Below are positions 1 through 53,544 of a stretch of DNA of 64,000 nt, in pieces. Position 1 is the stretch's first letter. Each line of letters begins with the position of its first letter. The stretch is taken from assembly GCA_030765065.1 (NCBI GenBank), contig CM060990.1, forward strand, positions 498,408,190 to 498,472,189, in the 5' to 3' direction. The position numbers and the translations under genes are program-made. The notes below the pieces were generated by a model. That model did not search any database. It had not been told where the DNA came from and saw nothing but the letters and a program-made list of their open reading frames with translations. The stretch is from Deroplatys truncata (taxonomy: Eukaryota; Arthropoda; Insecta; Mantodea; Mantidae).

Positions 1-2105
1 ATGGCAGCCGGATCCACTATGGTGGCATTAGAAACCTGAAGGCCAGAAACAGTACAATGTGACACTTTACCTGAGAAGCGACGAAGTTTATCCCAAACAA
101 CGGATGAAGGCGTAAAACGATTAAAAGACTCGACAAAACGAGCCCAAGATGCCTTCTTGCTATCCTGAATAATGCGACGAGCCCTGGCGCGCGATTGTTT
201 AAAAGTCACCAAATTATCAAGTGTAGGGTGGCGCCGAAACACCCTAAGTGCAGTCCTACGGGCACGAACGGCGTCCCGACAATCCTCGTTCCACCACGGA
301 ACAGGTGGCCGCCGAGGTTGGGAGGATGAACGGGGTATTGCGCGTTCGGCGGCAGAGAAAATAACAGACGTAAGGTGCTGCACTAGTTGGTGAATGTTGG
401 AGAAGGGCTGGTCGTCAAAATGCACGAGGCTGGAATACAAGCTCCAGTCGGCTTTTGCGAATATCCAGGTAGGTACTCTGGAATGCTGTACGTGGTGCGA
501 CAGAAGAGAAACGATGCAGGGGTAATGGTCGCTGGAGTAGGTGTCAGCGACGACGTTCCACTGAAGACGACGTGCAAGCTGGAGTGAGCAAATTGCAAGG
601 TCCAGGTGAGAAAATGTACCAGAAGAATCAGAAATAAAAGTAGGTGCACCTGTATTGAGGATGGAAAGATTGAACTGATAAAAAATGTCGGAAAGAAGAG
701 TTCCCCTCGCACAAGCCCTTGGCGAACCCCATAGTGGGTGATGGGCATTAAAATCTCCCAACAGAAGAAATGGTGTTGGGAGAGCGGACAGGAGAGATTG
801 CATGTCCGCGGGAGCGAGGGGAGACGATGGAGGTGTATACACAGAGCAAACAGAAAACAAAAAGCCGGGTAAGTGAAGGCGAACGGCAACAGCTTGCAAG
901 TCAGATGTAAGTGTGACAGGTGTAAAATGAACGTCATTACGCTCAAGCGCCGTGAATCGGTTCTGGGTGGCGATGGGTGAAGGGTGCCGCTGAGCGCGGC
1001 TTGTCCCAGGACCTTCCTGGGACAGCGACCTCCGAGGAGGAGAAGGTGAACTTTTCTTACCGCGCGCACGCGGAGGGTCTTTCAAAAAATCTTCCCTACG
1101 TAGTTTCTGCTTGGGCTTCTTTTCAACGGCTTGCGACTTCATTGACTTGGGACCAGGTTTATACGGCTTGGTAACTGTAGCCTTAATAGACGGCCGGATG
1201 GTAGTGGCGGTTAATCCAGTCAAGGTCCAGGTCTGAGTTTCGGCATCTACGCGTGGTACTGGCGAGGCAACAACAGAACTAAATGTGCCAGATCGCAGGA
1301 GTGAAGGTTGGCGCGCATGGTAACGCCTCCGGGCTTCAGCGAAGGAGAGTTTTTCCTTTACCCGGATCTCCTGGATCGCCTTCTCGTCCAAGTACCGCGG
1401 ACAGTCGGCAAACGAAGCAGAATGAGACCCTTTACAATTAACGCAGACGGGGGCTGTTGAACAGGTACCTTCGTGTGAGGGCTGGCTACAGGTTGCACAG
1501 ATGTTAACGGCACTCTTACATGAGACTTGCGTATGCCCAAAACGTTGGCATTTAAAACAACGCAGAGGTCTAGGAATATAAGGCCTCACAGAAATCCGTT
1601 CGTACCCTGCGGAAATGCTCGTGGGCAGATCGACGCCATCAAATGTAATAAACAGGGTACGAGTGGGTACCAACACGCCGTCGCGTTTGGCCTGCACTCG
1701 ATGAACCGCTGTCACCCTCTGGTCTGCAAGATATTCCACCAGGTCTTCGTCAGAGATACCATCGAGGCTATGCGTGGTGACAACGCCTCTACATGAATTC
1801 AAGGTGCGGTGCTTCTCAACACGGATAGGATAACCGTGGAGAAGCGTGGCGCTCAACAAGGACTTACTTTGTGCCTCGGATTTGCTTTGAACTAGCAACG
1901 AACCATTACGAAGCCGAGTGCAGGAAAGAACCGGACCAGCAATTGAGTCAATGCCCTTCTGGATAATAAAAGGGTTCACCTTCTCGAATGATTGTCCCTC
2001 CTCTGTACGGGTAATCACTAAGTAACAACCAGCTGTTGGCGGTGCTACTTCTGTTACTAAAACTTTGCGGCGCTTGTTGTTAACAATGGAGAAAGGGTGC
2101 TCCAT
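1..2105 (-). pseudogene. LINE copy A: ORF1 and ORF2 fused in frame by a deletion
   Basis: The ATG at 2105 opens ORF1 (gag-like), which runs with all three CCHC-type knuckles to residue ~388. It then joins ORF2 at residue 72 without a stop; the joined residues read ...FTALE/RNDVHF.... Both halves have the same phase (first codon base at positions congruent to 2 mod 3). I found no stop down to the window edge, giving about 701 codons. The deletion removed ORF1's C-terminus, the intercistronic spacer and ORF2 residues 1-71, including the endonuclease residues N7 and E34, so the endonuclease must be dead. The rest of ORF2 lies to the left, outside the window, so completeness of the fusion is unknown. 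The breakpoint shows no clear microhomology. Confidence 0.85.
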
Positions 2106-2218
2106 AGCGAAAAAAAAAAAATCCTCCACCATTGCAACCGTCTCCGACCTCGGGCTCTGACTTCCCGGGCGTTACCCCGGCTTGGGTGAGTGGCCTATCT
2201 ATACCTAGCTCACCCCAG
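1..2218 (-). mobile_element. LINE copy A, 3' portion (interrupted by copy B; runs off the left edge)
   Basis: This is the outermost element of the first nest. From right to left it holds the start of the 5' leader (2106-2218), ORF1 and the 5' half of ORF2; its 3' end lies outside the window. Copy B is inserted at 2218 in the leader, and A resumes at 14356. The leader pieces before and after B add up to the 637 nt seen in copies C, D, F and G, plus five extra A residues in a homopolymer near 2109-2120. That agreement confirms the reconstruction. About 360 bp spanning the ORF1/ORF2 boundary are missing at 942/943. Confidence 0.93.
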
Positions 2219-2386
2219 GATGATGATGATGATATGCGGTTTAAGGGCGCTAAACTGCTACGGTCATCAGCGCCCTTACAATGTATAAAAGATAATGTCA
2301 AAATATAATGTCAAAATATAAAACAGGTAAAAGAACCGCATAGTTAAAAACGGGACACAAACCCGCAATGTTCAAATAGCTAAAAC

Positions 2387-2506
2387 CAACAACAGAACAA
2401 TAACAAAATAACAATAACAACAATAATAACAATAACAATAATAACAATATCAATAACAAGAACAACAATAATAACAAGAACAACAAGAATAACAATAACA
2501 ACAATA
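2387..2506 (-). repeat. AAC/AAT triplet array in the 3' UTR of copy B
   Basis: About 120 bp are built from AAC, AAT and AAG triplets on the plus strand (TTG/TTA/CTT on the element's sense strand). The array lies between the ORF2 stop and the terminal hairpin. It is the longest such array among the copies and gives a spurious leucine-rich reading frame on the minus strand. Confidence 0.85.
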
Positions 2507-2670
2507 CAAAGGTCTGAAAAACCAACACACTAAAAGCAAGGGCTATAAAAGATTAAAACGTGTCAGGAACTGTAGAATGCGAGGGACATGAGCGTCATAT
2601 GTCCACTGGGGATAAGAGTTCCCATAAAACAGACAGAATAAAAGTACTAAGCCAACAGACGCCCAACGCA

Positions 2671-5600
2671 TTAAATGCGCAGATTAAAATCACTGTCATG
2701 AATAAAACGTAAAACACATTCTACAGCACGCGTGTCGTCTGCCAAAACGTTGGCTAGGCCAACAGGCAGACCCACACGAGCACGCAATGCAGCTAAAACC
2801 TGACAGTCTGTTAAAATGTGACGCACCGTTAAGGGCACGTCACACTGCCCACAGAGTGGTGCGGGGTCACCACTGAGCAAATACCTATGACTAAAAACAC
2901 AATGTCCAATCCGTAGACGAGCTAAAATTACCTCTTCCCGACGACAAGAACGAGAAGAGGTACCCCAGATTAACGGGAGAAGCTTAACCTCCCGCAACTT
3001 GTTCCCCCGGAGGGCCGTCCACTCATCGCGCCAGCACGAGAGGATGCGGCGACGTAAAATAGCACACGAATCTGACGAGGGAACAACAGAGGTAAAAAAT
3101 CTGGGTAATAAAATCGCCGATTTCGCAGCGGCGTCGGCAGACTCATTCCCTGAGATGCCCACATGACCTGGAATCCACATGAAGGACACGCTGATGCCAG
3201 AGACACCAAGCGAGTGGAGCAGGTCATGTATGCGCTGTACAAGCGGGTGGTAATGGTACAGCGCAGTAATAGTCTGAAGGGCACTCAGAGAGTCCGTACA
3301 AATAAAACAGTGCTGTAAGGCGTGCCGCTGAATGTATAAAACGGATTGATAAATGCTAAAAAGTTCGGCGGTAAAGATTGAACATTGTGCAGGTAAACGA
3401 AACTTAAAACTACAGTGACCAGAAACAAAGGCACATCCAACTCCAGCTTCAGTCTTAGATCCATCGGTAAAGATAAAATGGAAGTCCCCGAATTGAGCCC
3501 GTACTTCTAAAAAAGCCGATCTAAAGACTGAAGCAGGGGTCGCAGTCTTCGGCATTGACGTTAGCCCAAGGTGACAGTGGGCCTCAGCGCGGGACCATGG
3601 AGGAAAACGCGTTTCCCCCCGTGGAAGGGCCGGCGCTGGCGTAACGTCCAAATGCCGAAGTAGCAGTCGAAATCGAACCCCTGGAGGGAGCAATGCAGAG
3701 GAGCTAACTAAATATTGCCGGTCAAGCGAATCCTCGTAAAATACATCGAAGGACGGGTGGTTAGGCAAGCTTGAGAGTCGACAAGCATAGCTGCACAAAA
3801 GCATCTCACGCCGGAAGGACAGCGGAGGCTCTGCAGCTTCTGCGTACAGACTGGGTACAGGGCTAGTTGGAAAGGCCCCTGTAGCGACTCTTATGCCACG
3901 ATGGTGAATGGCATTCAAACGACGTAACACAGATGGACGTGCCGACGAATAAACAATACACCCGTAATCAAGCTTGGATCGGACCAAAGAGCGATAAAGG
4001 CGAAGAAGGACGGTCCGATCAGCTCCCCAGGATGTGCCACTTAAAACACGTAAAAGATTAAGAGAACGGTCACACTTTGCTTTTAAAAAGGAAACGTGCG
4101 AGGTCCAACACAACTTCCTGTCAAAAATCAACCCCAAAAATTTCGCCTCGTCTGCAAACGGAAGTATCCCTGGCCCAAGATGGAGAGTGGGCGGAGGGAA
4201 ATACTTCCGGCGCCAAAAGTTGATGCAGACGGATTTCTCGGCGGAGAAATTAAAGCCGTTGGCGTTACTCCAGGCGTAGAGACGGTCGATACAGCTCTGG
4301 AGACGGCGTTCGAGTAGACAGGTCCGCCGTGAACTGCAATAAATAGCGAAATCGTCAACAAAAAGGGACGATGAAATGCCAGGTGGAATACAATCAACAA
4401 TGGGGTTGATAGCAATCGCAAAAAGTGTGACACTGAGTACAGAGCCCTGCGGTACTCCGTTCTCTTGAATAAAACGACGAGATAAAACCGAGCCCACACG
4501 TACACGAAAGACGCGGTCCGTCATAAACTCCCGAAGAAATATGGGAAGACGACCGCGCATATTCCAATCGTGAAGTGTACGTAAAATGCCGCCCCTCCAA
4601 CAAGTGTCATAAGCTTTCTCCAGGTCAAAAAATACAGCCACGGTTTGACACTTTCTCAGAAATCCATTCATAATATGCGTCGACAAGGACACCAGATGGT
4701 CGACGGTAGAGCGATAGCGACGAAACCCGCACTGAGCGTTCGCTAGAAGTTTCTGAGACTCAAGCCACCATGTCAACCGCCCGTTGATCATGCGCTCCAT
4801 CACCTTGCAAATGCAACTGGTGAGGGAGATAGGGCGGTAGCTGGAAGGTAGTTGGCGATCCTTCCCAGGCTTAAGTATAGGGACAATGGTGGCTTCGCGC
4901 CAAACGGAAGGAAAAATGCCGTCTTGCCAAATACGGTTATAGACCTGTAAGAGAAATAGTTTACTGTCGGCTGAAAGGTTCTTTAACATCAGGACATGAA
5001 TGCCGTCCGGCCCGGGAGCGGAGTGCCGAGAGCAATGAAGAGCGTGCTCCAGCTCCCTCATTGTGAATAGTTCGTTATAGCATTCAGCATTAACAGACCG
5101 AAAAGTATATGATGCGGAATCCTGCCGGTCTTTAATAGAGCGAAAGCCGGCGGAATAATGGTCTGAACTGGAAACCGCCTCAAAGGCAGAACCCAGAGTG
5201 TTAGCGATGGCAGCCGGATCCACTATGGTGGCATTAGAAACCTGAAGGCCAGAAACAGTACAATGTGACACTTTACCTGAGAAGCGACGAAGTTTATCCC
5301 AAACAACGGATGAAGGCGTAAAACAATTAAAAGACTCGACAAAACGAGCCCAAGATGCCTTCTTGCTATCCTGAATAATGCGACGAGCCCTGGCGCGCGA
5401 TTGTTTAAAAGTCACCAAATTATCAAGTGTAGGGTGTCGCCGAAACACCCTAAGTGCAGTCCTACGGGCACGAACGGCGTCCCGACAATCCTCGTTCCAC
5501 CACGGAACAGGTGGCCGCCGAGGTTGGGAGGATGAACGGGGTATTGCGCGTTCGGCGGCAGAGAAAATAACAGACGTAAGGTGCTGCACTAGTTGGTGAA

Positions 5601-6360
5601 TGTCGGAGAAGGGCTGGTCGTCAAAATGCACGAGGCTGGAATACAAGCTCCAGTCGGCTTTTGCGAATATCCAGGTAGGTACTCTGGAATGCTGTACGTG
5701 GTGCGACAGAAGAGAAACGATGCAGGGGTAATGGTCGCTGGAGTAGGTGTCAGCGACGACGTTCCACTGAAGACGACGTGCAAGCTGGAGTGAGCAAATT
5801 GCAAGGTCCAGGTGAGAAAATGTACCAGAAGAATCAGAAATAAAAGTAGGTGCACCTGTATTGAGGATGGAAAGATCGAACTCATAAAAAATGTCGGAAA
5901 GAAGAGTTCCCCTCGCACAAGCCCTTGGCGAACCCCATAGTGGGTGATGGGCATTAAAATCTCCCAACAGAAGAAATGGTGTTGGGAGAGCGGACAGGAG
6001 AGATCGAATGTCCGCGGGAGCGAGGGGAGACGATGGAGGTGTATACACAGAGCAAACAGAAAACAAAAAGCCGGGTAAGTGAAGGCGAACGGCAACAGCT
6101 TGCAAGTCAGATGTAAGTGTGACAGGTGTAAAATGAACGTCATTACGCACCAAAATCATGACACCACCATGAGCAGGAGTACCCTCCTCCGGTTCAAGGT
6201 CGTAGCGAACCGGAGTATATCCTCGGAAATCAAAAGGATCGTGAGGGCGAAGCTTAGTCTCCTGCAAACATACGACCATAGGTGAATGGGAACGCAATAA
6301 AAGCTGCAGTTCCGCCCTATGCGATCGTACACCACGTACATTCCAGGTCAGGATAGCCAT
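2671..6360 (-). CDS. LINE ORF2, copy B: endonuclease-reverse transcriptase-RNase H, intact
   Basis: This is a 1229-aa polyprotein starting at ATG 6360, 22 nt after the ORF1 stop. The AP-endonuclease domain (about 1-220) shows WNVRG with N7, QETK with E34, GDFNAHHPLW with D134/N136, and SDH at 208-210. The reverse transcriptase (about 440-800) shows FFDLEKAYD, NGVPQGSVLS and the catalytic FVDD at 667-670. RNase H shows FTDGSK (D966), AELFSI (E999), TDSLSAL and WIPGHVGI with H1066. A CxxC...H...C knuckle (CGQC, then HILTDC) follows near the C-terminus. The protein nicks the target and copies its own RNA. Copy B reads MAILTWN and DVHFTPVTL, and has C-terminal signature FIHDSDFNLRI shared with copy C. 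No stop or frameshift is present. Confidence 0.95.
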   Translation of the reverse strand: MAILTWNVRGVRSHRAELQLLLRSHSPMVVCLQETKLRPHDPFDFRGYTPVRYDLEPEEGTPAHGGVMILVRNDVHFTPVTLTSDLQAVAVRLHLPGFLFSVCSVYTPPSSPLAPADIRSLLSALPTPFLLLGDFNAHHPLWGSPRACARGTLLSDIFYEFDLSILNTGAPTFISDSSGTFSHLDLAICSLQLARRLQWNVVADTYSSDHYPCIVSLLSHHVQHSRVPTWIFAKADWSLYSSLVHFDDQPFSDIHQLVQHLTSVIFSAAERAIPRSSSQPRRPPVPWWNEDCRDAVRARRTALRVFRRHPTLDNLVTFKQSRARARRIIQDSKKASWARFVESFNCFTPSSVVWDKLRRFSGKVSHCTVSGLQVSNATIVDPAAIANTLGSAFEAVSSSDHYSAGFRSIKDRQDSASYTFRSVNAECYNELFTMRELEHALHCSRHSAPGPDGIHVLMLKNLSADSKLFLLQVYNRIWQDGIFPSVWREATIVPILKPGKDRQLPSSYRPISLTSCICKVMERMINGRLTWWLESQKLLANAQCGFRRYRSTVDHLVSLSTHIMNGFLRKCQTVAVFFDLEKAYDTCWRGGILRTLHDWNMRGRLPIFLREFMTDRVFRVRVGSVLSRRFIQENGVPQGSVLSVTLFAIAINPIVDCIPPGISSSLFVDDFAIYCSSRRTCLLERRLQSCIDRLYAWSNANGFNFSAEKSVCINFWRRKYFPPPTLHLGPGILPFADEAKFLGLIFDRKLCWTSHVSFLKAKCDRSLNLLRVLSGTSWGADRTVLLRLYRSLVRSKLDYGCIVYSSARPSVLRRLNAIHHRGIRVATGAFPTSPVPSLYAEAAEPPLSFRREMLLCSYACRLSSLPNHPSFDVFYEDSLDRQYLVSSSALLPPGVRFRLLLRHLDVTPAPALPRGETRFPPWSRAEAHCHLGLTSMPKTATPASVFRSAFLEVRAQFGDFHFIFTDGSKTEAGVGCAFVSGHCSFKFRLPAQCSIFTAELFSIYQSVLYIQRHALQHCFICTDSLSALQTITALYHYHPLVQRIHDLLHSLGVSGISVSFMWIPGHVGISGNESADAAAKSAILLPRFFTSVVPSSDSCAILRRRILSCWRDEWTALRGNKLREVKLLPLIWGTSSRSCRREEVILARLRIGHCVFSHRYLLSGDPAPLCGQCDVPLTVRHILTDCQVLAALRARVGLPVGLANVLADDTRAVECVLRFIHDSDFNLRI

Positions 6361-6565
6361 TAAAAATAAGGGGATAAACTGTCTATTTAGAAGGGCGGCT
6401 TAAAATTACCTTTTGTTTAACCTTTGGGCTCGGGCTTTTTGTATGGAGTTGGTCAGACTCCATAGCTTCCTCGGAGGGAGGGCCCACGCGCTCAGTGCCA
6501 GAAACCGATTCAAGCGCCGTGAATCGGTTCTGGGTGGCGATGGGTGTGGTGATGATGATGATGAT

Positions 6566-6659
6566 ATGCGGTTTAAGGGCGCTAAACTGCTACGGTCATC
6601 AGCGCCCTTACAATGTATAAAAGATAAGGTCACAATATAAAACAAGTAAAAAACCGCAT
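6566..6659 (-). other. 3'-terminal RNA structure of copy C: two nested perfect stems
   Basis: The inner hairpin is formed by aagggcgct (6575-6583) with agcgccctt (6601-6609), 9 bp with a 17-nt loop. The outer stem is atgcggttt (6566-6574) with aaaccgcat (6651-6659), also 9 bp. The inner hairpin is present in copies B, D, E, F, G, H and I. The outer arms are kept in B, D, E and G, with one mismatch in F and H (atgcggctt). LINE reverse transcriptases often recognise such 3' structures, so a role in template recognition is likely but is inferred. Confidence 0.7.
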
Positions 6660-6710
6660 AGTTAAAAACGGGACACAAACCCGCGTAGTTCAAAAAGCTA
6701 AAACTAACAA

Positions 6711-6798
6711 CAGAACAATAACAAAATAACAATAACAACAATAACTATAACAATAACAACAATAATAACAAGAACAACAAGAATAACAATAACAATAC
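6711..6798 (-). repeat. AAC/AAT triplet array in the 3' UTR of copy C
   Basis: This is the same position and composition as in copy B but shorter, with an AAG-containing middle. The length difference between otherwise near-identical copies indicates slippage or copying slippage. Confidence 0.8.
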
Positions 6799-6962
6799 AA
6801 AGTTCTGAAAAATCAACACACTAAAAGCAAGGGCAAGAAACGATTAAAACGTGTCAGGAACTGTAGAATGCGAGGGACATGAGCGCCAAATGTCCACTGG
6901 GGATAAGAGTTCCCATAAAAACAGACAGAATAAAAGTACTAAGCCAACAGGCGCCCAACGCA

Positions 6963-9900
6963 TTAAATGCGCAGATTAAAATCACTGTCATGAATAAAAC
7001 GTAAAACACATTCTACAGCACGCGTGTCGTCTGCCAAAACGTTGGCTAGGCCAACAGGCAGACCCACACGAGCACGCAATGCAGCTAAAACCTGACACTC
7101 TGTTAAAATGTGACGCACCGTTAAGGGCACGACACACTGCCCACAGAGTGGTGCGGGGTCACCACTGAGCAAATACCTATGACTAAAAACACAATGTCCA
7201 ATCCGTAGACGAGCTAAAATTACCTCTTCCCGACGACAAGAACGAGAAGAGGTATCCCAGATCAACGGGAAAGGCTTAACTTCCCGCAATTTGTTCCCCC
7301 GGAGGGCCGTCCACTCATCGCGCCAGCGCGAGAGGATGCGGCGACGTAAAATAATACACGAATCAGACGAGGGAACAACAGAAGTAAAAAATCTGGGTAA
7401 TAAAATCGCCGATTTCGCAGCGGCGTCGGCAGACTCATTCCCTGAGATGCCCACATGACCTGGAATCCACATGAAGGACACGCTGATGCCAGAGACACCA
7501 AGCGAGTGGAGCAGGTCATGTATGCGCTGTACAAGCGGGTGGTAATGGTACAGCGCAGTAATAGTCTGAAGGGCACTCAGAGAGTCCGTACAAATAAAAC
7601 AGTGCTGTAAGGCGTGCCGCTGAATGTATAAAATAGATTGATAAATGCTAAAAAGTTCGGCGGTAAAAATTGAACATTGTGCAGGTAAACGAAACTTAAA
7701 ACTACAGTGACCAGAAACAAAGGCACATCCAACTCCAGCTTCAGTCTTAGATCCATCGGTAAAGATAAAATGGAAGTCCCCGAATTGAGCCCGTACTTCT
7801 AAAAAAGCCGATCTAAAGACTGAAGCAGGGGTCTCAGTCTTCGACATTGACGTTAGCCCAAGGTGACAGTGGGCCTCAGCGCGGGACCATGGAGGAAAAC
7901 GCGTTTCCCCCCGTGGAAGGGCCGGCGCTGGCGTAACGTCCAAATGCCGAAGTAGCAGTCGAAATCGAACCCCTGGAGGGAGCAATGCAGAGGAGCGAAC
8001 TAAATATTGCCGGTCAAGCGAATCCTCGTAAAATACATCGAAGGACGGGTGGTTAGGCAAGCTTGAGAGTCGACAAGCATAGCTGCACAAGAGCATCTCA
8101 CGCCTGAAGGACAGCGGAGGCTCTGCAGCTTCTGCGTACAGACTGGGTACGGGGCTAGTTGGAAAGGCCCCTGTAGCGACTCTTATGCCACGATGGTGAA
8201 TGGCATTCAATCGACGTAACACAGATGGACGTGCCGACGAATAAACAATACACCCGTAATCAAGCTTGGATCGGACCAAAGAGCGATAAAGGCGAAGAAG
8301 GACGGTCCGATCAGCTCCCCAGGATGTGCCACTTAAAACACGTAAAAGATTAAGAGAACGGTCACACTTTGCTTTTAAAAAGGAAACGTGCGAGGTCCAA
8401 CACAACTTCCTGTCAAAAATCAACCCCAAAAATTTCGCCTCGTCTGCAAACGGAAGTATCCCTGGCCCAAGATGGAGAGTGGGCGGAGGGAAATACTTCC
8501 GGCGCCAAAAGTTGATGCAGACGGATTTCTCGGCGGAGAAATTAAAGCCGTTGGCGTTACTCCAGGCGTAGAGACGGTCGATACAGCTCTGGAGACGGCG
8601 TTCGAGTAGACAGGTCCGCCGTGAACTGCAATAAATAGCGAAATCGTCAACAAAAAGGGACGATGAAATGCCAGGTGGAATACAATCAACATAGGGGTTG
8701 ATAGCAATCGCAAAAAGTGTGACACTGAGTACAGAGCCCTGCGGTACTCCGTTCTCTTGAATAAAACGACGAGATAAAACCGAGCCCACACGTACACGAA
8801 AGACGCGGTCCGTCATAAACTCCCGAAGAAATATGGGAAGACGACCGCGGATATTCCAATCGTGAAGTGTACGTAAAATGCCGCCCCTCCAACAAGTGTC
8901 ATAAGCTTTCTCCAGGTCAAAAAATACTGCCACGGTTTGACACTTTCTCAGAAATCCATTCATAATATGCGTCGACAAGGACACCAGATGGTCGACGGTA
9001 GAGCGATAGCGACGAAACCCGCACTGAGCGTTCGCTAGAAGTTTCTGAGACTCAAGCCACCATGTCAACCGCCCGTTGATCATGCGCTCCATCACCTTGC
9101 AAATGCAACTGGTGAGGGAGATAGGGCGGTAGCTGGAAGGTAGTTGGCGATCCTTCCCAGGCTTAAGTATAGGGACAATGGTGGCTTCGCGCCAAACGGA
9201 AGGAAAAATGCCGTCCTGCCAAATACGGTTATAGACCTGTAAGAGAAAGAGTTTACTGTCGGCTGAAAGGTTCGTTAACATCAGGACATGAATGCCGTCC
9301 GGCCCAGGAGCGGAGTGCCGAGAGCAATGAAGAGCATGCTCCAGCTCCCTCATTGTGAAAAGTTCATTATAACACTCAATATTAGCAGATCGAAAATTAA
9401 AGGTGTCGGAATCCAGCCGGTCTTTGATAGAGCGAAAGCCGGCGGAATAATGGTCCGAATTGGATACCGCCTCAAAGGCAGCACCCAGAGTGTTAGCGAT
9501 GGCAGCCGGATCCACTATGGTGGCATTAGAAACCTGTAGGCCAGAAACAGTACAATGCGACACTTTACCTGAGAAGCGACGAAGTTTATCCCAAACAACA
9601 GATGAAGGCGTAAAGCGATTAAAAGACTCGACAAAACGAGCCCACGACGCCTTCTTGCTATCCTGAATAGTGCGACGAGCCCTGGCGCGCGATTGTTTAA
9701 AAGTCACCAAATTAGCAAGTGTAGGGTGGCGCCGAAACACCCTAAGTGCAGCCCTACGAGCACGAACGGCGTCCCGACAATCCTCGTTCCACCACGGAAC
9801 AGGTGGCCGCCGAGGTTGGGAGGATGAACGGGGTATTGCGCGTTCGGCGGCAGAGAAAATAATAGACGTAAGGTGCTGCACTAGTTGGTTAATGTCGGAG

Positions 9901-10652: not shown

Positions 10653-10672
10653 GAATAAAAGGGATAAACTGT

Positions 10673-21082: not shown

Positions 21083-21125
<43 letters not shown>

Positions 21126-28664: not shown

Positions 28665-28686
28665 GGAGAATAAGGGGACAAACTGT

Positions 28687-32945: not shown

Positions 32946-33105
32946 ATATATCTCAAAAACCAACACACTAAAAGCATAGCCAATAAAAGATTAAAACGTG
33001 TCAAGAACTGTAGAATGCGGGACATGATCGCCACATGTCACTGGGGAGTAAGTCCCTATAAAAACATACAGAAGAAAATAACAAAGCTAAAAGACGCTCA
33101 GCGCA

Positions 33106-36795: not shown

Positions 36796-36815
36796 GAATA
36801 AAAGGGATAAACTGT

Positions 36816-42912: not shown

Positions 42913-42995
42913 AACAATAGAATAACAATAACAATAACAATAGCAATAAAAACAATAACAATAATAACAATAACAACAATAGTAACAATAACAAT
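42913..42995 (-). repeat. AAC/AAT triplet array in the 3' UTR of copy H
   Basis: This is about 80 bp of AAC, AAT and occasional AGC/AGT triplets, between ORF2 and the terminal hairpin. Confidence 0.8.
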
Positions 42996-43159
42996 AAATA
43001 TGTCGCAAAAACCAACACACTACAAACATAGCCAATAAAAGATTAAAACGTGTCAAGGACTGTAGAATGCGAGGGACATGAGCGCCATACGTCACTGGGG
43101 AGTAAGTCCCTATTAAAACATACAGAATAAAATAACAAAGCTAAAAGACGCTCAGCGCA

Positions 43160-46100
43160 TCAAATGCGACGATTAAAACCAATGTCACTTATAAAACGTA
43201 AAAGACATTCTACAGCATGCGCGTCGTCTGCCAAAACGTTGGCTATGCCAACAGGCAGACCCAGGCGAACGCGCAGTGGAGCTAAAACTTGACACTCAGT
43301 TAAAATGTGACGCACCGTTAAGGGCACGTCACACTGCTGACACAGCGGAGCGGGATCACCACTGAGCAGGTAACTATGAGTAAAACGACAATGTCCAATT
43401 CGTAAACGGGCTAAAAGTACCTCTTCCCGACGTGAAGAACGAGAAGAGGTACCCCAGATTAACGGGAGCGGCTTAACCTCCCGCAACTTGTTCCCCCGGA
43501 GGGCCGTCCACTCATCGCGCCAGCGCGAGAGGATGCAGCGACGTAAAATAACACACGAATCTGACGAGGGAACAACAGAGGTAAAAAATCTGGGTAATAA
43601 AATCGCCGATTTCGCAGCGGCGTCGGCAGACTCATTACCTGAGATGCCCACATGACCTGGAATCCACATGAAGGACACGCTGATGCCAGTGACACCAAGC
43701 GAGTGGAGCAGGTCATGTATGCGCTGTACAAGCGGGTGGTAATGGTACAGCGCAGTAATAGTCTGAAGGGCACTCAGAGAGTCCGTACAAATAAAACAGT
43801 GCTGTAAGGCGTGCTGCTGAATGTATAAAATAGATTGATAAATGCTAAAAAGTTCGGCAGTAAAAATTGAACATTGTCCAGGTAAACGAAACTTAAAACT
43901 ACAGTGACCAGACACAAAGGCACATCCAACTCCAGCTTCAGTCTTAGATCCATCGGTGAAGATAAAATAGTAGTCTCCGAATTGAGCCCGTACTTCTAAA
44001 AAAGCCGATCTAAAGACTGAAGCAGGGGTCTCAGTCTTCGGCATCGACGTTAGCCCAAGGTGACAGTGGGCCTCAGCGCGAGACCATGGAGGAAAACGCG
44101 TTTCCCCCCGTGGAAGGGCCGGCGCTGGCGGAACGTCTAAATGCCGAAGGAGCTGTCGAAAGCGAACCCCTGGTGGGAGCAAGGCAGAGGAGCTAATAAA
44201 ATAGTGACGATCAAGTGACTCCTCGAAAAATAACTCGAAGGACGGGTGGTTAGGCAAGCTTGAGAGTCGACAAGCATAGCTGCACAAGAGCATCTCACGC
44301 CTGAAGGACAGCGGAGGCTCTGCAGCTTCTGCGTACAGACTGGGTACAGGGCTAGTTGGAAAGGCCCCTGTAGCGACTCTGATGCCACGATGGTGAATGG
44401 CATTCAATCGACGTAACACAGATGGACGTGCCGACGAATAAACAATGCACCCGTAATCAAGCTTGGATCGGACCAAAGAGCGATAAAGGCGAAGAAGGAC
44501 GGTCCGATCAGCTCCCCAGGATGTGCCACTTAAAACACGTAAAATATTAAGAGAACGGTCACACTTTGCTTTTAAAAAGGAAACGTGCGAGGTCCAACAC
44601 AACTTCCTGTCAAAAATCAACCCCAAAAATTTCGCCTCGTCTGCAAACGGAAGTATCCCTGGCCCAAGATGGAGAGAGGGCGGAGGGAAATACTTCCGGC
44701 GCCAGAAGTTGATGCAGACGGATTTCTCGGCGGAGAAATTAAAGCCGTTGGCGTTACTCCAGGCGTAGAGACGGTCGATACAGCTCTGGAGACGGCGTTC
44801 GAGTAGACAGGTCCGCCGTGAACTGCAATAAATAGCGAAATCGTCAACAAAAAGGGACGATGAAATGCCAGGTGGAATACAATCAACAATGGGGTTGATA
44901 GCAATCGCAAAAAGTGTGACACTGAGTACAGAGCCCTGCGGTACTCCGTTCTCTTGAATAAAACGACGAGATAAAACCGAGCCCACACGTACACGAAAGA
45001 CGCGGTCCGTCATAAACTCCCGAAGAAATATGGGAAGACGACCGCGGATATTCCAATCGTGAAGTGTACGTAAAATGCCGCCCCTCCAACAAGTGTCATA
45101 AGCTTTCTCCAGGTCAAAAAATACAGCCACGGTTTGACACTTTCTCAGAAATCCATTCATAATATGCGTCGACAAGGACACCAGATGGTCGACGGTAGAG
45201 CGATAGCGACGAAACCCGCACTGAGCGTTCGCTAGAAGTTTCTGAGACTCAAGCCACCATGTCAACCGCCCGTTGATCATGCGCTCCATCACCTTACAAA
45301 TGCAACTGGTGAGGGAGATAGGGCGGTAGCTGGAAGGTAGTTGGCGATCCTTCCCAGGCTTAAGTATAGGGACAATGGTGGCTTCGCGCCAAACGGAAGG
45401 AAAAATGCCGTCTTGCCAAATACGGTTATAGACCTGTAAGAGAAATAGTTTACTGTCGGCTGAAAGGTTCTTTAACATCAGGACATGAATGCCGTCCGGC
45501 CCGGGAGCGGAGTGCCGAGAGCAATGAAGAGCGTGCTCCAGCTCCCTCATTGTGAACAGTTCGTTATAGCATTCATCATTAGCAGACCGAAAAGTATATG
45601 ATGCGGAATCCAGCCGGTCTTTAATAGAGCGAAAGCCGGCGGAATAATGGTCTGAACTGGAAACCGCCTCAAAGGCAGCACCCAGAGTGTTAGCGATGGC
45701 AGCCGGATCCACTATGGTGGCATTAGAAACCTGAAGGCCAGAAACAGTACAATGTGACACTTTACCTGAGAAGCGACGAAGTTTATCCCAAACAACGGAT
45801 GAAGGCGTAAAACGATTAAAAGACTCGACAAAACGAGCCCAAGATGCCTTCTTGCTATCCTGAATAATGCGACGAACCCTGGCGCGCCATTGTTTAAAAG
45901 TCACCAAATTATCAAGTGTAGGGTGGCGCCGAAACACCCTTAGTGCAGTCCTACGGGCACGAACGGCGTCCCGACAATCCTCGTTCCACCACGGAACAGG
46001 TGGCCGCCGAGGTTGGGAGGATGAACGGGGTATTGCGCGTTCGGCGGCAGAGAAAATAATAGACGTAAGGTGCTGCACTAGTTGGTTAATGTCGGAGAAG

Positions 46101-46849
46101 GGCTGGTCGTCAAAATGCACGAGGCTGGAATACAAGCTCCAGTCGGCTTTTGCGAATATCCAGGTAGGTACTCTGGAATGCTGTACGTGGTGCGACAGAA
46201 GAGAAACGATGCAGGGGTAATGGTCGCTGGAGTAGGTGTCAGCGACGACGTTCCACTGGAGACGATGTGCAAGCTGGAGTGAGCAAATGGAAAGGTCCAG
46301 GTGAGAAAATGTACCAGAAGAATCAGAAATAAAAGTAGGTGCACCTGTATTGAGGATGGAAAGATTGAACTGATAAAAAATGTCGGAAAGAAGAGTTCCC
46401 CTCGCACAAGCCCTTGGCGAACCCCATAGTGGGTGATGGGCATTAAAATCTCCCAACAGAAGAAATGGTGTTGGGAGAGCGGACAGGAGAGATCGAATGT
46501 CCGCGGGAGCGAGGGGAGACGATGGAGGTGTATACACAGAACAAACAGAAAAGAAAAAACCGGGTAACTGCAGTCTAATGGCAACAGCTTGCAAGTCGGA
46601 CGTAAGTGTGATAGTTTGAAAATGAACGTCATTACGCACCACAATCATGACACCTCCATGAGCAGGAGCACCCTCCTCCGGTTCAAGATCGTAGCGAACC
46701 GGAGTGTACCCTCGGAGATCGAAAGGGTCGTGAGGGCGAAGCTTGGTCTCCTGCAAACACACGACCATAGGTGAATGGGAACGCAATAAAAGTTGCAGTT
46801 CCGCCCTATGCGATCGTACACCACGTACATTCCAGCTCAGGATAGCCAT
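43160..46849 (-). CDS. LINE ORF2, copy H: endonuclease-reverse transcriptase-RNase H, intact
   Basis: This is 1229 aa from ATG 46849 with complete endonuclease, FVDD and RNase H motifs. The endonuclease has the DVHFQTITL and SICSLQLAHRLQWN variants shared with C. The C-terminal half has LFFEESLDRHYFIS and CQQCDVPL, shared with D and G. Private changes are MIVVRND, FKQWRARVRR, RRCILSRWRD and a final DIGFNRRI. None hits a known catalytic residue. Confidence 0.95.
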   Translation of the reverse strand: MAILSWNVRGVRSHRAELQLLLRSHSPMVVCLQETKLRPHDPFDLRGYTPVRYDLEPEEGAPAHGGVMIVVRNDVHFQTITLTSDLQAVAIRLQLPGFFFSVCSVYTPPSSPLAPADIRSLLSALPTPFLLLGDFNAHHPLWGSPRACARGTLLSDIFYQFNLSILNTGAPTFISDSSGTFSHLDLSICSLQLAHRLQWNVVADTYSSDHYPCIVSLLSHHVQHSRVPTWIFAKADWSLYSSLVHFDDQPFSDINQLVQHLTSIIFSAAERAIPRSSSQPRRPPVPWWNEDCRDAVRARRTALRVFRRHPTLDNLVTFKQWRARVRRIIQDSKKASWARFVESFNRFTPSSVVWDKLRRFSGKVSHCTVSGLQVSNATIVDPAAIANTLGAAFEAVSSSDHYSAGFRSIKDRLDSASYTFRSANDECYNELFTMRELEHALHCSRHSAPGPDGIHVLMLKNLSADSKLFLLQVYNRIWQDGIFPSVWREATIVPILKPGKDRQLPSSYRPISLTSCICKVMERMINGRLTWWLESQKLLANAQCGFRRYRSTVDHLVSLSTHIMNGFLRKCQTVAVFFDLEKAYDTCWRGGILRTLHDWNIRGRLPIFLREFMTDRVFRVRVGSVLSRRFIQENGVPQGSVLSVTLFAIAINPIVDCIPPGISSSLFVDDFAIYCSSRRTCLLERRLQSCIDRLYAWSNANGFNFSAEKSVCINFWRRKYFPPPSLHLGPGILPFADEAKFLGLIFDRKLCWTSHVSFLKAKCDRSLNILRVLSGTSWGADRTVLLRLYRSLVRSKLDYGCIVYSSARPSVLRRLNAIHHRGIRVATGAFPTSPVPSLYAEAAEPPLSFRREMLLCSYACRLSSLPNHPSFELFFEESLDRHYFISSSALLPPGVRFRQLLRHLDVPPAPALPRGETRFPPWSRAEAHCHLGLTSMPKTETPASVFRSAFLEVRAQFGDYYFIFTDGSKTEAGVGCAFVSGHCSFKFRLPGQCSIFTAELFSIYQSILYIQQHALQHCFICTDSLSALQTITALYHYHPLVQRIHDLLHSLGVTGISVSFMWIPGHVGISGNESADAAAKSAILLPRFFTSVVPSSDSCVILRRCILSRWRDEWTALRGNKLREVKPLPLIWGTSSRSSRREEVLLARLRIGHCRFTHSYLLSGDPAPLCQQCDVPLTVRHILTECQVLAPLRVRLGLPVGIANVLADDAHAVECLLRFISDIGFNRRI

Positions 46850-46869
46850 GAATAAAAGGGATAAACTGT

Positions 46870-48159
46870 CTACTTAGAAGGGCGGCTTAAAATTACCTTT
46901 TGTTTAACCTTTGGGCTCGGGCTTTTTGTATGGAGTTGGTCAGACTCCATAGCTTCCTCGGAGGGAGGGCCCACGCGCTCAGTGCCAGAAACCGATTCAA
47001 GCGCCGTGAATCGGTTCTGGGTGGCGATGGGTGAGGGGTGCCGCTGAGCGCGGCTTGTCCCAGGACCTTCCTGGGACAGCGACCTCCGAGGAGGAGAAGG
47101 TGAACTTTTGCTACCGCGCGCACGCGGAGGGTCTTTCAAGAAATCTTCCCTACGTAGTTTCTGCTTGGGCTTCTTTTCAGCGGCTTGCGACTTCATTGAC
47201 TTTGGACCAGGTTTATAAGGCTTGGTAACAGTAGCTTTAATAGACGGCCGGATGGTAGTGGCGGTTAATCCAGTCAAGGTCCAGGTCTGAGTTTCTGCAT
47301 CTACTCGTGGTACTGGCGAGGCAACAACAGAACTAAATGTGCCAGATCGCAGGAGTGAAGGTTGGCGCGCATGGTAACGCCTCCGGGCTTCAGCGAAGGA
47401 GAGTTTTTCCTTTACCCGGATCTCCTGGATCGCCTTCTCGTCCAAGTACCGCGGACAGTCGGCAAACGAAGCAGAATGAGACCCTTTGCAATTAACGCAG
47501 ACGGGGGCTGTTGAACAGGTACCTTCGTGTGAGGGCTGGCTACATGTTGCACAGATGTTAACGGCACTCTTACATGAGACTTGCGTATGCCCAAAACGTT
47601 GGCATTTAAAACAACGCAGAGGTCTAGGAATATAAGGCCTCACAGAAATCCGTTCGTACCCTGCGGAAATGCTCGTGGGCAGATCGACGCCATCAAATGT
47701 AATAAACAGGGTACGAGTGGGTACCAATACGCCGTCGCGTTTGGCCTGCACTCGATGGACCGCTGTCACCTTCTGGTCTGCAAGATATTCTACCAGGTCC
47801 TCGTCCGATATACCATCGAGGCTATGGGTGGTAACGACGCCCCGACAGGAGTTCAATGTGCGGTGCTTCTCAACACGGATGGGGTAACCGTGGAGAAGCG
47901 TAGCGCGCAACAAGGTCTTACTTTGCTGATCGGACTTAGTTTGTGCCAATAAGGAACCATTCCGTAGACGAGTGCATGATTGAACCGCACCAGCAATAGC
48001 GTCTATTCCCTTCTGAATTATAAAAGGGTTCACCTTCTCAAAGTTTTGTCCTTCTTCTGTTCTCGAAATTACCAAGTAACAACCAGATGACGGCGGTGCT
48101 ACTTCTGTTACAATGACTTTTCGGCGCTTGTTGTTAATAATGGAGAAAGGGTGCTCCAT
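46870..48159 (-). CDS. LINE ORF1, copy H: gag-like protein, intact, mosaic
   Basis: This is 429 aa from ATG 48159. A one-base longer T run upstream closes the frame above the ATG here, which supports this ATG as the true start in all copies. The N-terminal third is of the D/F type (GIDAIAGAVQSC, LLAQTKSDQQSK, YLADQKVTAV) with private APPSSGCYL and EGQNFEK. The C-terminal part (MKSQAAEKKPKQK, RARGSKSSPSPP) is as in copy C. The three knuckles are intact. Confidence 0.93.
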   Translation of the reverse strand: MEHPFSIINNKRRKVIVTEVAPPSSGCYLVISRTEEGQNFEKVNPFIIQKGIDAIAGAVQSCTRLRNGSLLAQTKSDQQSKTLLRATLLHGYPIRVEKHRTLNSCRGVVTTHSLDGISDEDLVEYLADQKVTAVHRVQAKRDGVLVPTRTLFITFDGVDLPTSISAGYERISVRPYIPRPLRCFKCQRFGHTQVSCKSAVNICATCSQPSHEGTCSTAPVCVNCKGSHSASFADCPRYLDEKAIQEIRVKEKLSFAEARRRYHARQPSLLRSGTFSSVVASPVPRVDAETQTWTLTGLTATTIRPSIKATVTKPYKPGPKSMKSQAAEKKPKQKLRREDFLKDPPRARGSKSSPSPPRRSLSQEGPGTSRAQRHPSPIATQNRFTALESVSGTERVGPPSEEAMESDQLHTKSPSPKVKQKVILSRPSK

Positions 48160-51100
48160 AGCGAAAAAAAATCCTCCACCATTGCAACCGTCTCCGACCT
48201 CGGGCTCTGACTTCTCGGGCGTTACCCCGGCTTGGGTGAGTGGCCTATCTATACCAGACTCACCCCAGGGTCACACCTCCCAGAACATAGACAGAGGGAC
48301 CCAATCGCCGTCAGAAGTCAGCAGCTCATGCAATGGCCCCCCCGCGGGACTGCAGTTGAACAGCAGATACGAACAACAACCCTACATGACGACCCCGGGT
48401 GGTGGGGATGACGCCATTACCCACTCACCCAGCTGCGCACGCGGTGCGCGGGTATCCGTCAGGCTGTGTCCACGGAGGATTTAAATAAAAAGATAAAAGA
48501 AACTAAAACTGTGTGGGCGTTTCGCACGCAAGGTAGGCCGGCGGGGAAGAAAAAGAGATATGCGAATGTCGTGGTGCGAAATGGCCGGAAAGTGATTAGG
48601 GAAGAAAGAAACGATGGTGAGGTGCGGTATGGATGGAATGCAAAGAACGCACGAGAGCCTACCTTGGGTCCACCGGTCACTTGAAGAACCCACCTCGACC
48701 GGATGGGGGTGAGGGGATGAATGTGGCGATGAATGGCTCGGGAACCCCCGGGTGCGCCAAAAACCCGTACTCACATAAGGTGAGCCCCTGAGGGGAGAAC
48801 TAAATGTGCCAGATCGCAGGAGTGAAGGTTGGCGCGCATGGAAACGCCTCCGGGCTTCAGCGAAGGAGAGTTTTTCCTTTACCCGGATCTCCTGGATCGC
48901 CTTCTCGTCCAAATACCGCGGACAGTCGGCAAACGAAGCAGAATGTGACCCTTTACAATTAACGCAGACGGGGGCTGTTGAACAGGTACCTTCGTGTGAG
49001 GGCTGGCTACAGGTTGCACAGATGTTAACGGCACTCTTACAGGAGACTTGCGTATGCCCAAAACGTTGGCATTTAAAACAACGCAGAGGTCTAGGAATAT
49101 AAGGCCTCACAGAAATGCGTTCGTACCCTGCGGAGATGCTCGTGGGCAGATCGACGCCATCAAATGTAATAAACAGGGTACGAGTGGGTACCAATACGCC
49201 GTCGCGTTTGGCCTGCACTCGATGGACCGCTGTCACCTTCTGGTCTGCAAGATATTCTACCAGGTCCTCGTCCGATATACCATCGAGGCTATGGGTGGTA
49301 ATAACGCCTCGACAGGAATTCAATGTGCGGTGCTTCTCCACACGGATGGGATAGCCGTGGAGAAGCGTAGCGCGCAACAAGGTCTTACTTTGCTGATCGG
49401 ATTTCGTTTGGGCTAATAAGGAACCATTCCGTAGACGAGTGCAGGACTGAACCGCACCAGCAATTGCATCAATCCCCTTTTGTATGATGAAAGGGTTCAC
49501 CTTCTCAAAACTTTGTCCTTCTTCGGTTCGTGAAATGACCAAGTAACATCCAGTTGTCGGTGGTGTCACTTCTGTTACATAAACTTTTCGGCGCTTGTTA
49601 GTAGTAATGGAGGAAGGGTGCTCCATAGCGAAATAAATCCTCCACCATTGCAACCGTCTCCGACCTCGGGCTCTGACTTCCCGGGCGTTACCCCGGCTTG
49701 GGTGAGTGGCCTATCTATACCTAGCTCACCCCAGGGTCACACCTCCCAGAACATAGACAGAGGGACCCAATCGCCGTCGGAAGCCAGCAGCTCATGCAAT
49801 GGCCCCCCCGCGGGACTGCAGTTGAACAGCGGATACGAACAACAACCCTACATGACGACCCCGGGTGGTGGGGATGACGCCATTACCCACTCACCCAGCT
49901 GCGCACGCGGTGCGCGGGTATCCGTCAGGCTGTGTCCACGGAGGATTTAAATAAAAAGATAAAAGAAACTAAAACTGTGTGGGCGTTTCGCACGCAAGGT
50001 AGGCCGGCGGGGAAGAAAAAGAGAGATATGCGAATGTCGTGGTGCGAAATGGCCGGAAAGTGACAAGAGAAGAAAGAAACGATGGTGAGGTGCGGTATGA
50101 ATGGAATGTAACGAACGCACGAGAGCCTACCTTGTGTCCACCGGTCACTTGAAGAACCCACCTCGACCGGATGGGGGTGAGGGGATGAATATGGCGATGA
50201 TTGGCTCGGGAACCCCCGGGTGCGCCAAAAACCCGTACTCACATAAGGTGAGCCCCTGAGGGGGGTAAAAATCGAACATTGCTCTGGTAAACGAAAGGTA
50301 AAATTATTTCCACCACAAAAAAAGGCACATCCTACTCCAGCTTCAGTCTTAGATCCATCAGTAAAGATAAAATCAAAGTCCCCGAATTGCGACTGAAGTT
50401 CTAAAAACGCTGATCTAAAGACTGAAGAAGGGGTCTCATTCTTCGGCATCGACGATAACCCAAGGTGACAGAGGGCCTCAGCGCCCAACCATGGAGGAAA
50501 ACGCGTTTCCCCCCTTGGAAGCGCCGGCGCTGGCGTAACGTCCAAATGCCGAAGTAGCAGTCGAAATCTAACCCCTGGAGGGAGCAATGCAGAGGAGCTA
50601 ACTAAATATTGCCGGTCAAGCGACTCCTCGTAAAATACCGCGAAGGACGGGTGGTCAGGCAAGCTGGAGAGTCGACAGGCATAGCTACACAAGAGCATCT
50701 CACGCCTGGAGGACAGCGGAGGCTCTGCAGCTTCAGCGTAAAGACTGGGCACGGGGCTAGTTGGAAAGGCCTCTGTAGCGACTCTAATACCACGATGATG
50801 AATGGGATTCAAGCGACGTAACACAGATGGACGTGCCGATGAAAAGACAATACACCCGTAATCAAGTTTGGATCGGACCAAAGAGCGATATAGACGCAGA
50901 AGGACGGTCCGATCAGCTCCCCAGGATGTGCCACTTAAAACACGTAAAAGATTAAGAGAACGGTCACACTTTGCTTTTAAAAAGAAAATGTGCGAAGTCC
51001 AACACAACTTTCTATCAAAGATCAACCCCAAAAATTTCGCCTCGTCTGCAAAGGGAAGTATCCCTGGCCCTAGATGGAGAGAGGGCGGAGGGAAATACTT

Positions 51101-52728
51101 CCGGCGCCAGAAGTTGATGCAGACGGATTTCTCGGCGGAGAAATTAAAGCCGTTTGCGTTACTCCAGGCGTAGAGACGGTCGATACAGCTCTGGAGACGG
51201 CGTTCGAGTAGACCGGTCCGCCGTGAACTGCAATAAATGGCAAAATCGTCAACAAAAGGGGACGATGACATGCCAGGTGGAATACAATCAACAATGGGGT
51301 TGATAGCAATCGCAAAAAGTGTGACACTGCTTTAACATCAGTACATGAATGCCGTCCGGCCCAGGAGCGGAGTGCCTAGAGCAATGAAGAGCGTGCTCCA
51401 GCTCCCGCATTGTGAATAGTTCATTATAACACTCAATATCAGCAGACCGAAAATTAATGGTGTCGGAATCCAGCCGGGATTTGATAGAGCGAAAGCCGGC
51501 GGAATAATGGTCTGAACTGGATACCGCCTCAAATGCAGCACCCAGAGTGTTAGCGATGGCAGCCGGATCCACTATAGTGGCATTGGAAACCTGAAGGCCA
51601 GAAACAGTACAATGTGACACTTTACCTGAGAAGCGACGAAGTTTATCCCAAACAACAGATGAAGGCGTGAAGCGATTAAAAGACTGGACAAAACGAGTCC
51701 AGGACGCCTTCTTGCTATCCTGAATAATGCGACGAGCCCTGGCGCGCGATTGTTTAAAAGTCACCAAATTATCAAGTGTAGGGTGTCGCCGAAACACCCT
51801 AAGTGCAGTCCTACGGGCACGAACGGCGTCCCGACAATCCTCGTTCCACCACGGAACAGGTGGCCGCCGAGGTTGAGAGGATGAACGGGGAATTGCGCGT
51901 TCGGCGGCAGAGAAAATCGTAGACGTAAGGTGCTGCACTAGTTGGTTAATGTCGGCGAAGGACTGATCGTAAAAAGGCACGAGGCTGGAATACAAGCTCC
52001 AGTCGGCTTTTGCGAATATCCAGGTAGGTACTCTGGAATGCTGTACGTGGTGTGACAGAAGAGAAACGAAGCAGGGATAATGGTCGCTGGAGTAGGTGTC
52101 AGCGACGACGTTCCACTGAAGACGAGCAAGCTGGAGTGAGCAAATGGCAAGGTCCAGGTGAGAGAATGTACCAGAAGAATCAGAAATAAAAGTAGGTGCA
52201 CCTGTATTGAGGATGGAAAGATTGAACTGATAAAGAATGTCGGAAAGAAGAGTTCCCCTCGCACAAGCTATTGGCGAACCCCACAGTGGATGATGGGCAT
52301 TAAAATCTCCCAACAGAAGAAATGGTGTTGGGAGAGCGGACAGGAGAGCTCGAATGTCCGCGGGAACGAGAGGAGATGACGGAGGTGAATATACAGAGCA
52401 AACAGAGAAGAAAAAACCGGGTAACTGCAATCTAAGGGCAACAGCTTGCAAGTCGGATGTAAGTGTGACAGGTTTAAAATGAACGTCGTTACGCACTAAC
52501 AACATGACACCTCCATGAGCAGGAGTACCCTCCTCCGGTTCAAGGTCGTAGCGAACCGGAGTATATCCTCGGAGATCAAAAGGATCGTGAGGGCGAAGCT
52601 TAGTCTCCTGCAAACATACCACCATAGGCGAATGGGAACGCAATAAAAGTTGCAGTTCAGCCGTATGCGATCGTACACCACGTACATTCCAGGTCAGGAT
52701 AGCCATTAAGAAAAAGGTGATAAACTGT

Positions 52729-53366
52729 CTATTTAGAAGGGCGGCTTAAAATTACCTTTTGTTTAACCTTTGGGCTCGGGCTTTTTGTATGGAGTTGGTC
52801 AGACTCCATAGCTTCCTCGGAGGGAGGGCCCACGCGCTCAGTGCCAGAAACCGATTCAAGCGCCGTGAATCGGTTCTGGGTGGCGATGGGTGAGGGGTGC
52901 CGCTGAGCGCGGCTTGTCCCAGGACCTTCCTGGGATAGCGACCTCCGAGGAGGAGAAGGTGAACTTTTGTTACCGCGCGCACGCGGAGGGTCTTTCAAAA
53001 AATCGTCCCTACGTAGTTTCTGCTTGGGCTTCTTTTCAGCGGCTTGCGAGTTCATTGACTTTGGACCAGGTTTATAGGGCTTGGTAACAGTAGCTTTAAT
53101 GGACGGCCGGATGGTATTGGCGGTTAATCCAGTCATGGTCCAGGTCTGAGTTTCGGCATCTACTCGTGGTACTGGCGAGGCAACAACAGAACTAAATGTG
53201 CCAGATCGCAGGAGTGAAGGTTGGCGCGCATGGAAACGCCTCCGGGCTTCGGCAAAGGAGAGTTTCTCCTTTACCCGGATCTCCTGGATCGCCTTCTCGT
53301 CCAAATACCGCGGACAGTCGCCAAATGAAGCAGAATGTGACCCTTTAGAATTAACGCAGACGGGGA
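52729..53366 (-). pseudogene. LINE ORF1, copy E: C-terminal half only
   Basis: This part covers the third knuckle to the stop at 52729. The first two knuckles and everything before them are gone: at about 53366 the gene joins leader sequence (gaacgcacgagagcc). The remaining knuckle has lost its second cysteine (CVNSKGSHS instead of CVNCKGSHS), so no zinc site is left. The frame stays open into the joined leader, up to 53490, but that part is not homologous protein. Confidence 0.9.
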
Positions 53367-53544
53367 ATGAAATGCACAGAACGCACGAGAGCCTACCTTG
53401 AGTCCCCCGGTCACGAGAACGAACGCACCTCGACCGGACGGGGGTGGATAGATGATGGCGATGATTGGCTCGGGAACCCCCGGGTGACACTCAACTGAGA
53501 TTCGAGTGTGAGTGCCCCTTAGTACGGACCATGGATTTGGCCCT

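Follow-up and report, generated by a model that had tools for sequence, protein, structure and literature searches.

Why should eight long copies of one retrotransposon family, several of them inserted into each other, all lie on the same strand? The question is raised by a 64 kb stretch of the genome of the mantis Deroplatys truncata (GenBank assembly GCA_030765065.1, contig CM060990.1, positions 498,408,190 to 498,472,189), here called the window. The contig, C16 in our numbering, measures 707 Mb, and the genome comprises 4.29 Gb in 818 contigs. The minus strand of the window carries eight long copies (A to H) of a long interspersed nuclear element (LINE) of about 6.05 kb, together with a fragment of 79 bp (I). 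The strand of LINE insertions is usually taken as random, apart from local motifs. In this genome, young copies of the family lie mostly on one strand within regions of roughly 0.1-2.4 Mb, whatever the local target.

The copies were mapped by comparing the window with itself and by alignment to copy G (6048 bp, read as the reverse complement of 32696-38743). C lies in B and B in A, G and H lie in F and F in E, and D stands alone, exactly the nest that a preliminary description of the window had drawn. All mapped pieces of the nine copies are on the minus strand, as was also stated there, and the end coordinate it gave, 53498, is the end of the target duplication of copy E. Seven insertions (B, C, D, E, F, G and H) have their two ends inside the window, and target duplications were found at every one. 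They are exact stretches of 8-15 bp shared by both ends, the 8 bp of B being the weakest, and a few of their bases in copies other than B may be tail. The chance of 1 in 256 that had been attached to the common orientation is unsafe, since it assumes independence of adjacent copies, and genome-wide counts are used here instead.

A genome-wide count of parallel against antiparallel self-insertions had been set beforehand as the test. Our genome samples are the best 40 candidates per DNA query and the best 150 per protein query, and lean to best-matching, young copies. Queries with the reverse transcriptase (RT) and the 3' end located 160 places, of which 4 lie in the window; 149 of the 156 others were read, which with window copy G makes 150 3' junctions (long flanks were read at 30, short ones at 120). 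The tail adjoins or nearly adjoins DNA of the family in 77 of these, 69 rows being parallel and 8 antiparallel, and removal of four duplicate rows leaves 65 against 8. With strict criteria (a host of 80% identity or more, a match no more than 15 bp from the tail, window copy excluded) the counts are 62 and 5 (p = 1.4e-13). On the 5' side, family DNA adjoins 13 of the 30 junctions, and all 13 are parallel; they include two that duplicate each other and, separately, the window's copy. The ratio over the 150 3' junctions is about 8:1 to 12:1, not near 1, and therefore the bias is real. The dense self-nesting remarked on earlier also holds, with family DNA next to 77 of 150 tails and in one of 40 random 450-bp pieces (403 of 18,000 bases).

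The bias extends far beyond the nests. Neighbours 10-200 kb apart share their strand in 42 of 42 pairs with the RT query and in 57 of 59 with the 3'-end queries (58 of 60 once hits that belong to a single element are merged), and agreement beyond 1 Mb is about half at the sampled places. These places include one-strand zones on C14 (0.73-2.31 Mb, minus), C7 (6.22-6.58 Mb, plus) and C1 (178.60-179.94 Mb, plus). On C11 the strand switches between 42.33 and 42.59 Mb. A 30-base pattern of the 3' end, with up to two mismatches, has 6479 matches in the genome (2920 forward, 3559 reverse), and the first 100 of these exact-pattern 3' ends, ordered along 0-206.5 Mb of C1, form a less selected sample. 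In this C1 list, agreement between neighbours is 13/14 below 12 kb, 22/23 at 12-50 kb and 23/29 at 50-200 kb (45/52 for 12-200 kb combined), followed by 6/6 at 0.2-1 Mb and 9/17 at 1-5 Mb. Zones of the list are 43/45 plus at 178.17-180.61 Mb, 11/13 minus at 20.35-21.71 Mb and 7/7 minus at 4.08-4.24 Mb. Strand coherence is strong, yet not absolute.

Whether an insertion follows its host copy or its region was judged from neighbours at 12-500 kb, requiring at least two of them and an 80% majority (limits of our own choice, with neighbours from the sampled places only). Insertions into non-family DNA take the strand of the neighbourhood in 33 of 34 testable cases, the remaining 39 of 73 having too few or mixed neighbours. 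The bias is thus not specific to self-insertion, the form in which it had been described. Parallel self-insertions match the regional strand in 53 of 53 testable cases, and among testable antiparallel ones the insert, not the host, carries the regional strand in 3 of 4. Where no neighbour is known within 500 kb, 3 self-insertions are parallel and 2 antiparallel; where neighbours are known, the counts are 61 and 6. Because of these counts (33/34, 53/53, 3/4 and the isolated 3:2), the regional strand is a better predictor of new insertions than the host copy, the deciding exceptions and isolated cases being few. What was suspected from nine copies holds across the genome, and more broadly than first proposed.

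The non-family targets are often tandem arrays, which were detected in 27 of 73 non-self flanks and in 0 of 40 random pieces. An array had to fill at least 80% of 280 bp; periods range from 41 to 144 bp, and this test missed a 142-bp repeat in one random piece (L227). The 73 flanks include duplicates and shared arrays, so the 27 are not independent events, and by our grouping they reduce to about 15 arrays. When clusters were compared with each other, only members of the C13, C14 and C11:198 Mb groups matched, each inside its own group. A word of the 58-bp satellite on C13 occurs 0 times forward and 8819 times reverse (the first 100 matches listed are all on C13), and a word of the 97-bp satellite on C14 occurs 159 and 5717 times. 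Five flanks in the C14 array use four different positions of the 97-bp unit, all on one strand. The minority forward blocks of this satellite resemble repeats of one block of about 3 kb (C14 1401716-1404790, 1422732-1425786, 1435063-1438137 and 1563037 onwards). A simple array is absent from the flanks read at other clusters, including the window and C11:41.8-42.3 Mb.

By its parts the element is an ordinary LINE, and regional strand coherence is its unusual trait. Open reading frame (ORF) 2 matches the Pfam families RVT_1 (7.9e-32), Exo_endo_phos_2 (1.2e-19) and Exo_endo_phos (5.4e-18), with an RNase H domain (PF00075, 3.6e-11) 3' of the RT, and in copy G it matches L1 ORF2p chains across the endonuclease (EN) and RT (5e-25). 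ORF1 has CCHC knuckle-like motifs by eye, while Pfam zf-CCHC has an E value of 0.18, under the cut-off. The 3' tails are (TCA)n. Judged by these domains, its short-repeat tails and its target duplications, the family is a non-LTR retrotransposon (LINE) predicted to use target-primed reverse transcription. It is young and probably active. With a 298-base 3'-end query, 40 of the 41 matches listed are at 100% (rounded; 3 score slightly lower) and one is at 85%; the best 150 places of the RT query comprise 2 at 100% and 148 at 99% identity, none with an internal stop. Copies of the type of E (matches 95-98% to E) are called old here from their divergence.

We propose, tentatively, that a region-wide directional process sets the nicked strand, and passage of the replication fork is our first choice, although held at less than even confidence. 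The element often lands in its own copies and in directional satellite arrays, probably by target-primed reverse transcription. Where a fork crosses origin-poor repeat blocks, the endonuclease would favour one template strand. Such fork-coupled strand choice would be akin to the reported preference of human L1 for the lagging-strand template (PMC12503042), but stronger. Nested parallel towers would arise because host and insert both obey one regional direction. With somewhat more doubt, young copies may be a natural record of fork or transcription direction across satellite, possibly centromeric, DNA, with a targeting that reads arrays as such and not one sequence. If replication or transcription direction is the cause, the copies would map that direction in satellite DNA, where its measurement is hard. 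The present analysis does not separate three causes, namely the fork, read-through transcription and purging of inverted copies, the last two being serious competitors of the first. In a limited literature, judged by titles and abstract openings, no precedent was found for one-way LINE clusters in satellites.

Several observations weigh against this proposal. The one-way zone of 2.4 Mb is long for a single fork, and strand switches within clusters have no clear polarity (7 vs 5 in the young set, 12 vs 7 in all). Strand skew is significant per flank in array flanks (n = 26, p = 0.002) and not in non-array flanks (n = 43), and GC skew counted per array is not significant (13/18 negative, p = 0.17). 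Young places agree with their neighbours in 207 of 211 cases within 200 kb and 229 of 237 within 500 kb. Of the divergent E-type copies, 4 match their young neighbours and 2 do not within 200 kb, and 4 match and 6 do not within 500 kb, an outcome that varies with the radius and in which two of the ten comparisons rest on one neighbour. Direction is therefore unlikely to be an ancient fixed property of a locus, unless that subfamily lacks the coupling. The C1 agreement at 50-200 kb is below that of the best-match samples. Furthermore, another LINE group has same-strand ratios of 15:1 below 12 kb and 21:7 at 12-200 kb, and a mixed RVT_1 list has 18:2, 6:0 and 7:5 at 0-12, 12-50 and 50-200 kb. 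The other group differs from the RT sample (42:0; Fisher p = 0.001) but not from the C1 list (45:7; p = 0.23). The regional effect is, at least partly, common to other LINEs of this genome, which weakens a family-specific range but not the regional rule. Members of the other group (L001-L008 and others) have open frames of up to about 1010 aa and form same-strand pairs or triplets a few to about 10 kb apart, several of them on small contigs.

An unlikely explanation, and still the one that we would consider next, is that insertion strand is random and that inverted copies are then lost through hairpins, deletions or dicentric exchange. In a study of human Alu elements (PMC3215922), inverted pairs are reported to be depleted, with an adjacent inverted:direct ratio of 0.82 and an imbalance extending to 350 kb. 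Direct pairs exceed inverted ones over long distances there as here, but Alu is the weaker precedent, its effect being small beside 42/42, or 45/52 on C1. The close-range agreement of the second LINE group and the two nearly inversion-free satellites would fit such a loss. However, the pattern is present among copies of 99-100% identity, which have therefore had little time for purging, and parallel bias is equally strong in divergent hosts (19:1 at less than 90% identity, 46:7 above). Discordance is commoner among divergent copies, which have been exposed longest, although their divergence would also shield them, and near-identical antiparallel nested pairs persist at C16:367 Mb (L115, L116, L020 and L021). 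Selection against inverted copies, which the preliminary description had offered as a cause, keeps a place among the candidates but is not favoured by the discordant divergent copies and these antiparallel pairs. If purging is the cause, this would be the strongest exclusion of inverted pairs known to us.

We regard as distinctly unlikely that the family reinforces its own direction, with read-through transcription from young copies exposing single strands or R-loops that orient the next insertion. Consistent with it, young copies follow the strand of the young cluster better than divergent copies do, the frames are open in all of the best 150 RT matches, and the bias is not seen without a known young neighbour (3:2). 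Coherence over 2.4 Mb would, however, require transcripts of great length or numerous start sites, and the strand rule is also valid for satellite and other non-family flanks.

Target sequence alone is an improbable cause. Endonuclease sites would have to be confined to one strand of each satellite monomer and, in the element, be concentrated on one of the two strands, and the two tested arrays are indeed strongly one-directional. At 56 parallel sites the nick prefers C before and T after, with pyrimidines downstream (arrays are similar), and the motif YCTYY occurs 104 times on one strand of the element and 40 times on the other. Because of this difference, motif effects beyond our simple model could contribute. 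However, position-weight models predict only 0.52-0.61 parallel insertion within the element and, averaged over array flanks, 0.52-0.57 (single flanks 0.15 to 0.68), which falls short of the observed bias, and local motif was rejected as the full cause; a strand preference at the target, another earlier suggestion, is too weak in the sequence models tested. Moreover, the different unit positions used in the C14 array all give one strand, the cluster at C11 41.8-42.3 Mb is equally coherent although its two non-self flanks are not arrays, and isolated self-insertions show no clear bias (n = 5).

Multiplication of copies by block duplication or unequal array exchange, which would preserve orientation, is very improbable. 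Duplicate junctions do exist (L026-L028, L076/L077, L174/L175, L123/L124, L166/L167 and L040/L045), as do the repeated satellite blocks of about 3 kb on C14. But by our count junctions are distinct in 13 of 17 cases in the C14 cluster and 12 of 12 in the C11 41.8-42.3 Mb cluster, all minus, and each bounded insertion in the window has its own target duplication; as a full cause, block duplication is largely refuted by the distinct sites. Misjoined or collapsed repeats are hardly credible even in a repeat-rich assembly of 818 contigs with some identical duplicated junctions, given the matching target duplications at seven bounded insertions, mostly distinct target sites, coherence on many chromosomes and no reason for misassembly to prefer one strand per region.

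Known LINEs resemble this family in part. TRAS/SART and Waldo insert into tandem arrays in one orientation, each recognising one sequence. One-orientation insertion into arrays is shared by the mantis element, whereas its targets are the element itself and about 15 arrays (periods 41-144 bp) that share no detectable similarity. A site-specific LINE was rejected, given the many target positions in the element, the many unrelated arrays and the weak C|T preference. The Drosophila elements HeT-A, TART and TAHRE join chromosome ends in tandem with uniform orientation. Elements of one family are uniformly oriented here too, but the window copies are internal and have target duplications, and clusters are also found mid-chromosome, as at C1 178-180.6 Mb and C16 367-376 Mb, on which ground a telomeric LINE was rejected. 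Two of the largest clusters are near contig middles (C1:178.2-180.6 of 338.6 Mb; C16:367-376 of 707 Mb) and, as a guess, may be centromeric.

By its domain set (EN, RT and RNase H), the family is a candidate member of the I-group. It shares with I-group elements two ORFs, an EN-RT-RNase H ORF2, a short-repeat tail and duplications of about 8-15 bp, and the CCHC-like motifs seen by eye in ORF1 may be a further likeness. We know of neither one-way Mb clusters nor a satellite preference in that group, nor, to our knowledge, are one-way Mb clusters found for human L1. The likeness to L1 lies in the ORF2 match over EN and RT, and the proposed parallel is a strand choice tied to a directional process. 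Strand agreement in the mantis family, which is young and has thousands of 3' ends, spans hundreds of kilobases and different targets.

The coordinates of the window copies are listed in the table. ORF1 and ORF2 are both open in C, G and H, while ORF2 of D is split into two frames. The pieces of E are 84-94% identical to G, with the greatest divergence at the 3' end.

Table. Pieces and reading frames of the LINE family in the window (positions of the window; element bases numbered on copy G).
Feature	Position	Strand	Remarks
Copy A, 3' side piece	1..2219	-	element bases 3102-2161 and 1801-530; 360 bp absent at 942/943; continues past left window edge
Copy A, 5' end piece	14355..14895	-	element bases 541-1
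Copy B, 3' piece	2221..6546	-	element bases 6048-1765; host A; duplication GCTCACCC at 2208-2215 and 14355-14362
Copy B, 5' piece	12600..14351	-	element bases about 1775-24 (5' end begins at base 24)
Copy C, full length	6550..12599	-	host B; aligned to G over 6553-12599; duplication GGCGATGGGTG at 6536-6546 and 12600-12610
Copy C, ORFs	6963-10652; 10673-11989	-	1229-aa ORF2; 438-aa ORF1; both open
Copy D, full length	24581..30614	-	host non-family DNA; aligned to G over 24584-30614; duplication ATTGCGTTTGAA at 24569-24580 and 30614-30625
Copy E, 3' piece	31059..32090	-	divergent 3' end; duplication 31051-31061 and 53488-53498, its last bases possibly part of the tail
Copy E, 5' piece	50264..53486	-	internal deletions at 51329/51330 and near 53365
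Copy F, 3' piece	32092..32696	-	host E; duplication GGTAAAAATCGAA at 32075-32087 and 50264-50276
Copy F, middle piece	38743..42743	-	
Copy F, 5' piece	48796..50263	-	
Copy G, full length, reference	32696..38743	-	host F; duplication AGAGTGGCGCGGGGT at 32682-32696 and 38743-38757, with end bases that possibly belong to the tail
Copy G, ORFs	33106-36795; 36816-38132	-	ORF2 (EN, RT, RNase H); ORF1
Copy H, full length	42744..48796	-	host F; (TGA)n tail; aligned to G over 42757-48796; duplication AGAACTAAATGTG at 42731-42743 and 48796-48808
Fragment I	61442..61520	-	79 bp of element 3' end

Some element positions were struck repeatedly, at about base 5511 (L072, L073 and L109), 2491 (L120 and L168) and 3596-3598 (L014 and L141). 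L120 and L168 are on different chromosomes, with flanks 99% identical. Since identical positions were struck at different places, there may be hot target sites inside the element. L021 and L020 share the target base 2863-2864, and L021 (1-1802, C16:367.31 Mb) has a plus-strand 3' piece (element 4978-6045) next to a 5' end piece that is inverted, an arrangement like that of twin priming.

Neither the window nor the DNA next to eight RVT_1 loci gave an Rfam match at the gathering score. Between the two towers there is an ORF with a MADF domain (21957-22364, plus strand; Pfam E 2.7e-12). A remnant at 56127-57037 (minus strand), with matches to DDE_1 (6e-07) and weakly to helix-turn-helix domains, is probably from a DNA transposon. 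Two short tandem repeats are also present in the window, one of 63 bp x 3 at 55311-55502 and one of 41 bp x 2 at 56654-56736.

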